In this document: positions 4,956 to 15,497 of the stretch, piece by piece | Layout: every line of letters begins with the position of its first letter | How positions within the stretch are numbered: the first letter of the stretch is position 1 | NCBI GenBank assembly: GCA_024642565.1 | Contig: JAHEAV010000012.1 | Coordinates: forward strand, 1 to 64,000 | Direction of reading: 5' to 3' | Length of the DNA stretch: 64,000 bases | From: Erythrobacter sp. | GTDB lineage: Bacteria > Pseudomonadota > Alphaproteobacteria > Sphingomonadales > Sphingomonadaceae | The notes under the pieces: generated by a model | Seen by the model: the letters and a program-made list of their open reading frames with translations, nothing else | The model's database searches: none | What the model was told of the DNA's origin: nothing | Program-made: the position numbers and the translations under genes

Positions 4956-5546
4956 ATGACCTTTGGTTCGACCGCGATGGTCACGCGCCTTGCAGGTATG
5001 GCGGCGGCGGTGGCCCTTTGCGCCGGTCATGCCCAGGCGCAATTCGGTGGAATCAAGATCCCCTTGCCCAGCGCTTCCAGCAATTCGTCCACTTCCGATG
5101 GTTGCCCAAAGGGCAAGAAAAAGAGCGCCGGTTCTTCGATATTTGGCAGTGTGCTGGGGCAAGTGGCTGGCAATGCGGCAAGCCGCGCCGGTGTTTCCAG
5201 CTGGGTGCCGATCTCCGAAGTTTCGGATCAATTGACCAACGCAATTGCTTGCCGGCTCGATCCCGAAGAACAGAAACAGGCCGCGCAGGCTACATTGGAG
5301 GCAACACGTAGCGATGTTGCCATCACCGATGCCGCGCCTGATGTCGGCTCCACTTCTACCTGGACATCGAACACGCGCGAGGATGTGTCTGGCAGTTCGA
5401 CTGTCGTTGCGCGCAATGATGATGAAGCGACCGGCCTGCAGTGCATCACGGTGACCGATGTCATTATTGTAAAGGGTGAGGAAACCACGGCGAATAAGCG
5501 CATGTGCCGGGTGCCGGGATCGGCACGCTATTCGCTGGCAGCATGA
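4956..5546 (+). CDS. Hypothetical secreted protein
   Basis: MTFGSTAMVTRLAGMAAAVALCAGHAQAQ signal peptide; no family recognised. Confidence 0.65.
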   Translation: MTFGSTAMVTRLAGMAAAVALCAGHAQAQFGGIKIPLPSASSNSSTSDGCPKGKKKSAGSSIFGSVLGQVAGNAASRAGVSSWVPISEVSDQLTNAIACRLDPEEQKQAAQATLEATRSDVAITDAAPDVGSTSTWTSNTREDVSGSSTVVARNDDEATGLQCITVTDVIIVKGEETTANKRMCRVPGSARYSLAA

Positions 5547-6261: not shown

Positions 6262-7164
6262 TTGACTTCCGAACGCCTGCCTGCGCGCAGCTTTCTGTTG
6301 CTGGTTGCGGTCTGCTTCCTGTGGTCGCTGAATGTCGTAATCAGCAAATTGGTGGTGGGCGATCTGGGGGTGCCGCCGCTGTTTTATGCCGCTGCCCGTT
6401 CGGTAATCGTGGTGGCAGTCCTGGCGGCTTATCTTCGCCCGCTGCCGCGCCAATGGTGGCAGGCGATGCTCTGCGGCCTGGCGATTAGTGGCGGTTCCTT
6501 TTCCCTGCTGTTTATTGGCCTGAAATCCGCCAGCCCTTCGTCGGCTGCCATCGTCAGCCTGTCCGGCGCACCGCTGACGGTGCTGTTCGCGATCATGTTA
6601 TTGGGCGAGGAAGTCCGCTGGCGGCGCGGATTGGGGATCGCGCTGACCTTTGCAGGGGTGATGGTTGCCATTGCTTCCCCGTCCGCCTGGCAATCGGGGC
6701 CAGGTTTGCTGTTTGTCGGGGCATCTGCGGTTGTTGGCGCGCTAGGTTCCGTCTTTGTCAAACGGATCGAGATTACTTCGATAAGCCTGCAGGCGTGGGC
6801 GGGATTGTCTTCCAGCCTGATGCTGGTGCCGCTCACACTGGTTATGGAACAAGGTCAGTTCGCCGCAGTGGCCGCCGCCCCATGGGAATTTGCCGCCTGT
6901 TTGTTGTTTTCAGCGATCGTCGTGTCGGTTGGCGCACACACATTCTATTTCAAGCTGCTTCAGAGGCATGATGCCAATCTGATTGCTCCGCTGACGTTGA
7001 TGACCCCGCTGTTCACAATCCTGCTGGGGGCGCTGGTAACGGGTGACGAGATCGGGGTTACCTTGCTTCTGGGCGGTGCCCTTGCGGCGGCGGGTGTGCT
7101 GGTCATTCTGGTCAGGCCAAGCAAGACCTTCGCAAAATTCCTGCTGGTCCGCCCGCGCCTGTAG
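6262..7164 (+). CDS. DMT/EamA family transporter
   Basis: Ten hydrophobic segments, FWLLVAVCFLWSLNVVISK-like N-terminus; TTG start. Confidence 0.85.
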   Translation: MTSERLPARSFLLLVAVCFLWSLNVVISKLVVGDLGVPPLFYAAARSVIVVAVLAAYLRPLPRQWWQAMLCGLAISGGSFSLLFIGLKSASPSSAAIVSLSGAPLTVLFAIMLLGEEVRWRRGLGIALTFAGVMVAIASPSAWQSGPGLLFVGASAVVGALGSVFVKRIEITSISLQAWAGLSSSLMLVPLTLVMEQGQFAAVAAAPWEFAACLLFSAIVVSVGAHTFYFKLLQRHDANLIAPLTLMTPLFTILLGALVTGDEIGVTLLLGGALAAAGVLVILVRPSKTFAKFLLVRPRL

Positions 7165-14981: not shown

Positions 14982-15112
14982 TGTCGAAAATCCTCTAAAC
15001 TTGCTGTGCGCCTAGGTGAAATTGTAATATTAGGCAAGATATAGCTTCATCATTTATAATAAATGAAAAGTAGTACCGTACCGTGCTGCGCGCGCTTATC
15101 ACCACTAACAGG

Positions 15113-15127
15113 AAATGAGAAGGGCGG
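15113..15127. repeat. Copy 1 of a 15-nt perfect direct repeat AAATGAGAAGGGCGG
   Basis: Identical to 15162-15176; the latter forms one arm of the hairpin at 15168-15203. Confidence 0.85.
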
Positions 15128-15167
15128 CTTCGATCATGCAGGTTGCCTGCTCCGGAGGCTAAAATGA

Positions 15168-15203
15168 GAAGGGCGGTCCCGGCTAAGCCGGGTACCGCCC
15201 TTC
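15168..15203 (-). terminator. Strong stem-loop, terminator-like on the minus strand (or attenuator)
   Basis: GAAGGGCGGT-CCCGGC-taa-GCCGGG-t-ACCGCCCTTC (16 bp, one bulge); on the minus strand followed by TCATTTTAG. Confidence 0.7.
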
Positions 15204-15252
15204 GCATGGTCAGCGGCCAGAAGTGCCGCCCACGAATGCCTCTATCGCCCTG

Positions 15253-15312
15253 TTACCGGCGATAATGCTCCGTGCGGAAACTTACCGACCTCCCTGCTGA
15301 ACCATGAGACAT
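15253..15312 (-). CDS. Candidate 19-aa leader peptide/small protein MSHGSAGRSVSFRTEHYRR
   Basis: ATG preceded by GAAAGGAGGTGATCCG (15-nt complement of the 16S 3' end) at normal SD spacing, stop TAA, hairpins downstream. Confidence 0.55.
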   Translation of the reverse strand: MSHGSAGRSVSFRTEHYRR

Positions 15313-15497
15313 CGGATCACCTCCTTTCGCGCTATGTAGCCAGAGCCTCCGTTTCACCGGAGCCCAAGACCGCGTTCGCCGCTGATCTTGATTGCAATGT
15401 GAGTCATTCGGGCGCGCAACACAAGTCTTGTAATTATCTTTTTCCACGTCAGAATGCGTTGCTTCGTGGCGAGTGGTATCGACCTCGACAGTTCTTC

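Follow-up and report, generated by a model that had tools for sequence, protein, structure and literature searches.

A CC2171-like RNA gene in Erythrobacter sp. with a 15-nt complement of the 16S rRNA 3' end and a conserved short reading frame

The small RNA CC2171, which is reportedly a product of the 2008 screen of Landt et al. in Caulobacter crescentus, is listed in Rfam as family RF01867, and we found no functional study of it in the literature searched. An RNA-seq product, MH_s33, has been reported at the RF01867 locus of Mesorhizobium huakuii (PMC5596092), and ribosome profiling in Caulobacter indicated that two previously predicted ncRNAs are translated, although the text of that paper leaves them unnamed (PMC4117421). 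The Sinorhizobium meliloti rnTrpL/peTrpL system is likewise an alphaproteobacterial small RNA with a short ORF, derived from an attenuator (PMC10117765). However, the leaderless rnTrpL is linked to trpE, whereas the RNA described here has an extreme Shine-Dalgarno (SD) sequence and neither a conserved neighbour nor a conserved peptide. The alphaR8 sRNAs (MmgR, SisA-D) and the sponge CrfA are alphaproteobacterial sRNAs that also revolve around SD/anti-SD complementarity (PMC12559287), but the polarity is opposite, as alphaR8 carries CCUCC, and its possible pairing with the host RNA extends over about 5 nt. In Staphylococcus aureus, extended SD sites lengthen the SD-antiSD helix toward the start and aid weak start codons (PMC13009471); those sites belong to ordinary genes, whereas here a single dedicated small RNA would pair over 15 nt.

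The locus is located in a stretch of 64,000 nucleotides from Erythrobacter sp. (contig JAHEAV010000012.1), hereafter the window. On the minus strand, positions 15328-15314 read GAAAGGAGGTGATCC, followed by a single G and an ATG at 15312 (Table 1). An earlier note on this DNA had described the 15-nt exact complement of 16S rRNA and the 19-codon ORF behind it; their sequence and coordinates were confirmed, and the 15 nt pair with the 16S ends of relatives. It had missed that this ORF lies inside an RNA of the known CC2171 family, which has a conserved fold and a terminator-like hairpin of its own. We are nearly certain that GAAAGGAGGTGATCC forms the 5' start of an RNA gene of about 165 nt on the minus strand, from 15328 to approximately 15164, and that this gene is homologous to RF01867. 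The covariance model of the family, used with a permissive threshold, aligns over its full length (1-159/159) to 15336-15170 with 42.0 bits (E 1e-7), and the 5' motif, the helices and the 3' hairpin all match. As the gathering score of 75 bits is not reached, the host copy is a divergent relative and not a member by Rfam's rule. The two versions have the same 5' sequence CGAAAGGAGGUGAUCC..UGUCUCAU, the same helix order and the same terminal hairpin, whereas the Sphingomonadales version has other P1 and P2 sequences and ATG instead of GTG. They also differ in that RF01867 is a non-coding sRNA in Rfam, whereas the frame evidence presented below points to translation.

Table 1. Features of the RNA gene and its upstream region; positions refer to the window.
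Feature	Position	Strand	Sequence	Remark
Putative promoter	15400..15431	-	ACAAGACTTG (CTTG as -35), 15 nt, TGACTCA	GANTC at the -10 position
5' leader, two hairpins	15346..15390	-	CAAGATC...GGTCTTG and CTCCGGTGAAACGGAGG	Compensating changes, by eye
15-nt SD sequence	15314..15328	-	GAAAGGAGGTGATCC	Complement of the 16S 3' tail; substitutions retain pairing
ORF, 19 codons	15253..15312, TAA included (15255-15253)	-	MSHGSAGRSVSFRTEHYRR-stop	Frame conserved in relatives
Helix P1, 5' strand	15296..15306	-	CATGGTTCAGC	From codon 3; pairs with 15205-15214
Helix P1, 3' strand	15205..15214	-	GCTGACCATG	Abuts the terminator-like hairpin
Helix P2	15231..15274	-	CACGGAGC / GCATTCGTG, extended by TATCGCC / GGCGATA	Stop codon in the apical loop
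Terminator-like hairpin	15160..15203	-	GAAGGGCGGTACCCGGCTTAGCCGGGACCGCCCTTC, then TCATTTTA	From sequence; conserved with pair changes

The 16S 3' end used for comparison is that of two relatives from the host's family, in place of the host's own 16S; these genes end in ...GGCTGGATCACCTCCTTTCTA and are fully complementary to GAAAGGAGGTGATCC over 15 nt. The predicted duplex reaches -30.1 kcal/mol, compared with about -10 to -11 for two invented SD sequences of the ordinary type. Without mismatch, the 15-mer has a single occurrence in the whole 64-kb window, and a search of the 2.5-Mb host assembly for its 14-nt core likewise gave one match. When 289 alphaproteobacterial genomes were searched for the 14-mer followed by a base that does not match 16S, 58 genomes were found, versus 2 for a reversed control pattern. 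Of these 58 matches, 54 have [AGT]T at the start-codon position behind the same 1-nt spacer, while one has no spacer and three resemble 16S variants. Among 36 variants with a single substitution in the 14-nt stretch, which were hand-picked from motif matches with up to 2 mismatches in 386 genomes, 27 still pair with 16S as G-U. When repeats of one substitution within a family are counted as a single event, 18 of 26 retain the pairing against an expected share of 1/6 (p 4e-9), as do 18 of the 19 transitions (p 4e-5), and the substitutions that retain pairing include GATCC positions, which lie outside an ordinary SD. These substitution patterns indicate that the complementarity of the element to 16S is under selection. 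The exact antisense match might also be a chance match or a remnant of a 16S gene, but the probability of this is practically nil: no 16S sequence surrounds the site, an Rfam search for rRNA genes in the window found none, and the conservation of element, fold and frame refutes it.

The same 5' end could be read differently, namely as the GGAGG-rich end of a trans-acting sRNA that binds CCUCC-bearing sRNAs or mRNAs, a CrfA-like sponge for alphaR8/SisA-D in which the ORF is incidental. RF01867 is indeed named and catalogued as an sRNA, and CrfA is another Caulobacter RNA that sponges anti-SD sRNAs (PMC12559287). However, the alphaR8 core UUUCCUCCCU would pair with only about 5 nt of the motif compared with 15 nt for 16S, which led us to reject an alphaR8 sponge for too short a pairing, and an incidental ORF would not hold its frame. 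We therefore regard such a trans-acting RNA as improbable.

The conservation in related genomes, on which the earlier note had made its reading depend, is clear. Of 61 related genomes, 29 contained the region in a DNA search, every one of these in the host's family, with 15330-15284 as the best conserved portion. Our own covariance model, built from 32 Sphingomonadales copies, gave hits in 32 of 37 members of this family and in 0 of 24 genomes from the other families of the order. Class-wide, the RF01867 model has matches in 40 of 192 genomes, scores between 28 and 90 bits in other Alphaproteobacteria and also matches divergent relatives of the element. The motif was found with up to 2 mismatches in 121 of 386 genomes, although some of the two-mismatch matches look like chance, and a scan of named genomes yielded at least 118 stretches. 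The genera among the matches listed are Sphingomonas, Novosphingobium, Mesorhizobium, Bosea, Methylobacterium, Brevundimonas, Azospirillum, Roseomonas and others. When the phylum was sampled as a whole, the 57 exact matches were confined to the Alphaproteobacteria, and the reversed control pattern gave 0. Relatives of the element occur in many orders of this class. Most genomes have a single copy, and many Alphaproteobacteria have no detectable copy, so the element is not universally needed.

Several copies depart from the usual form. Two genomes of the host's family, G070 and G017, contain a second, diverged copy alongside the usual MSHG type (e.g. MSHCHALNAASGTTVIASAGWLRA in L041), and the copies of G018, G026 and G008, which have no others, score weakly. 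Outside the Alphaproteobacteria, TTG-start versions are present in two Gemmatimonadetes MAGs (L066, L086) and a Nitrospinota MAG (L147), with RF01867 matches to L066 (E 6e-4) and L147 (E 3e-5); these copies may be due to real spread or to mis-binned contigs. The copy located about 1.5 kb into L059 contains CCCACCTCCTTAAA in its interior; this sequence nearly repeats the 16S anti-SD tail and could mask the SD of that copy.

Compared with shuffled sequence, the minus strand has a much more stable predicted fold (z = -6.5). In the sphingomonad alignment, 95.9% of the cells pair, and the covariation score is 0.336, whereas shuffles reach 0.162 and slid structures no more than 0.082; the structure, being derived from the very alignment on which it was scored, has an advantage over its slid versions. 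Changes on both sides are carried by P2, in which five of eight pairs changed with pairing kept, and by the terminator-like hairpin. P1 is invariant in the Sphingomonadales, and the case for this helix lies in the compensated differences between orders (CATGGT/ACCATG, CATTGTC/GACAATG, CATGAAT/ATTCATG and CATCGC/GCGATG). Against mononucleotide shuffles, P1 gave a modest result copy by copy (36 of 107 at p<=0.05), since the tested stretch is short and the terminator calls are imperfect. The pairing data argue that the fold is under selection. The terminator-like hairpin, which no ORF overlaps, was detected in 169 of 181 copies, and this marks the element as an independent unit; in a strict T-run scan of the window, the hairpin at 15160..15203 was not flagged. 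The 3' half of this terminator recurs as GCCGCCCTTCTCATTT 50-60 nt further downstream, at 15108-15128 on the minus strand between the RNA and ilvE.

The reading frame was compared in 115 dereplicated copies, which remain related to one another, so that the following counts do not represent independent events. A premature stop, before codon 17, occurs in 2 copies in the frame of the start codon versus 56 and 46 in the other frames, and a stop at codons 18-26 in 99 copies versus 16 and 12; the start codons are ATG (61), GTG (48) and TTG (6). The motif ACCTGGATC, located at +33, 36, 39 or 42 from the start, is in phase in 11 of 11 cases despite the varying distance, and the inner motif GGAGCAGCCT in 14 of 16 while its distance from the start varies. 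In addition, the sphingomonad alignment is nearly gap-free from start to stop, whereas copies differ in the length of the loop that follows the stop. From these comparisons, we conclude that the reading frame is under selection, and the ORF is very probably translated. The SD, start codon and short ORF that the earlier note had seen are genuine and conserved, on a unit that looks transcribed. In Azospirillum copies (L117, motif at 6758; L162, motif at 5492), the SD-MSHG start opens an ORF of 57-59 codons with the look of a secreted protein, and these elements still hold a P1-like helix and the terminator-like hairpin.

The encoded peptide behaves differently. The synonymous share among codons with a single change is 0.33, 0.26 and 0.21 in three peptide classes, compared with 0.28, 0.26 and 0.28 at random, and the third codon position is not the most variable position of the ORF, so that purifying selection on the amino acids is not detectable in these alignments. 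A functional small protein, one of the readings of the earlier note, sits poorly with amino-acid changes that are not avoided. Peptides from different orders have only M/V-S-H/S in common. The C-terminal R-T-E-H-Y-R-R, which had been put forward as an arrest or Arg-sensing tail, is not conserved, and other copies end in, for example, ...FVRGTRR, ...SADCTFGKQSSR or ...TWILASAEIGA; the HYR codons sit in a hairpin arm, the pairing of which can explain their conservation. In the VSH class, an [ST]W[IVM] motif recurs and the W count of 25 is moderately above the shuffled mean of 15, and some role of the peptide is possible in this class. Identity with SEP1 of S. meliloti (23 aa, highest TE) was rejected, as a pI of 4.18 seems, by eye, incompatible with MSS-type peptides.

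The main rival explanation has to be weighed against these observations, namely that the RNA is a small mRNA for a highly expressed microprotein of 18-26 residues, with the fold controlling mRNA stability. The strict maintenance of the frame, the alternative start codons and the phase-locked inner motifs would all be accounted for, as would the longer, secreted-looking protein of the Azospirillum versions and the recurrence of TW[IMV] in one class, and the purpose of such tight SD pairing may be no more than a high level of expression. Nevertheless, we consider a microprotein rather unlikely, as in each of the three classes amino-acid changes arise as often as random change would predict, and conservation is much higher in the stretch complementary to rRNA than in the peptide.

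Upstream of the RNA, a block of the form CTTG-N14-16-TGANTCA (ACAAGNCTTG-N15-TGANTCA) precedes 31 of 59 MSHG-type copies in the Sphingomonadales and is found 0 times in shuffles; it may function as a promoter. GANTC is a methylation site of the CcrM type. Its degenerate position is C in 12, A in 8 and T in 11 of the 31 copies, and the host genome has a GcrA gene, which suggests that the RNA may be under CcrM/GcrA methylation control. A two-hairpin 5' domain of about 50 nt between promoter and SD is confined to Erythrobacteraceae-type copies and absent in Sphingomonas- and Caulobacter-type copies. Downstream, a same-strand ilvE is restricted to the host's family (23 loci), whereas an unrelated gene follows in Bosea and Methylobacterium copies; no neighbour gene is conserved beyond the family level, and conservation of the element extends further than that of any gene beside it, so that the link to ilvE in the earlier note is not supported. 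The succession of ORF, terminator-like hairpin and ilvE in the host's family could suggest a cis-acting leader peptide or attenuator of the downstream gene. However, we found neither conserved linkage to a regulated gene nor conserved sensing codons or an arrest motif, and no run of amino acids fits a sensed amino acid. As the peptide is under no detectable purifying selection and no neighbour is conserved beyond the family, the element does not appear to be an ilvE or Arg attenuator, and we regard cis-acting control as very improbable; we agree with the earlier note that it is not a branched-chain attenuator.

Since evolution has preserved the docking site and the frame but let the peptide diverge, we read ribosome engagement as the selected act. 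Our preferred explanation, for which we see roughly balanced chances, is an independent, translated and structured sRNA of the CC2171 type that docks 30S subunits, and the complementarity to the 16S 3' tail that such docking would use is indeed selected. A single-stranded 5' tail would offer about 15 nt of 16S complement and a start codon to 30S subunits, and from codon 3 onwards a folded domain would follow, in which P1 closes P2 and is stacked on the terminator hairpin. The docked ribosome would form the long SD helix, and its footprint would open P1. As the 18-26 codons are translated, P2 would unfold, and the ribosome would stop short of the terminator. The peptide itself would be largely throw-away, and what is selected would be docking, passage of the ribosome across the fold and the position of the stop. 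The most likely purpose, of which we are clearly less confident than of translation itself, is titration or sensing of free 30S subunits by the RNA, or a switch of its own fold or stability by the ribosome.

Taken together, homology, selected 16S complementarity, a selected frame, a fold and the lack of a conserved neighbour are read from sequence comparisons, from which we infer that the RNA is transcribed in the host organism and actually translated. RF01867 would thereby become an RNA that is translated and in which 16S complementarity and frame are selected but the peptide is not, a combination that we did not identify in the papers searched; if CC2171 is among the two translated Caulobacter ncRNAs, the translation part would already be on record (PMC4117421). 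One might tentatively speculate that CC2171-type RNAs constitute a translation-operated class across the Alphaproteobacteria, which capture 30S subunits by a near-complete antisense of the 16S tail and use ribosome passage over a disposable ORF as a switch or dose meter, thereby measuring or buffering free initiation capacity, with transcription in the Sphingomonadales perhaps tied to the cell cycle via the GANTC (CcrM/GcrA) promoter. Such RNAs would have a bearing on SD-dependent initiation in the Alphaproteobacteria, a class in which leaderless mRNAs are numerous in some members, and their function is directly testable in Caulobacter.
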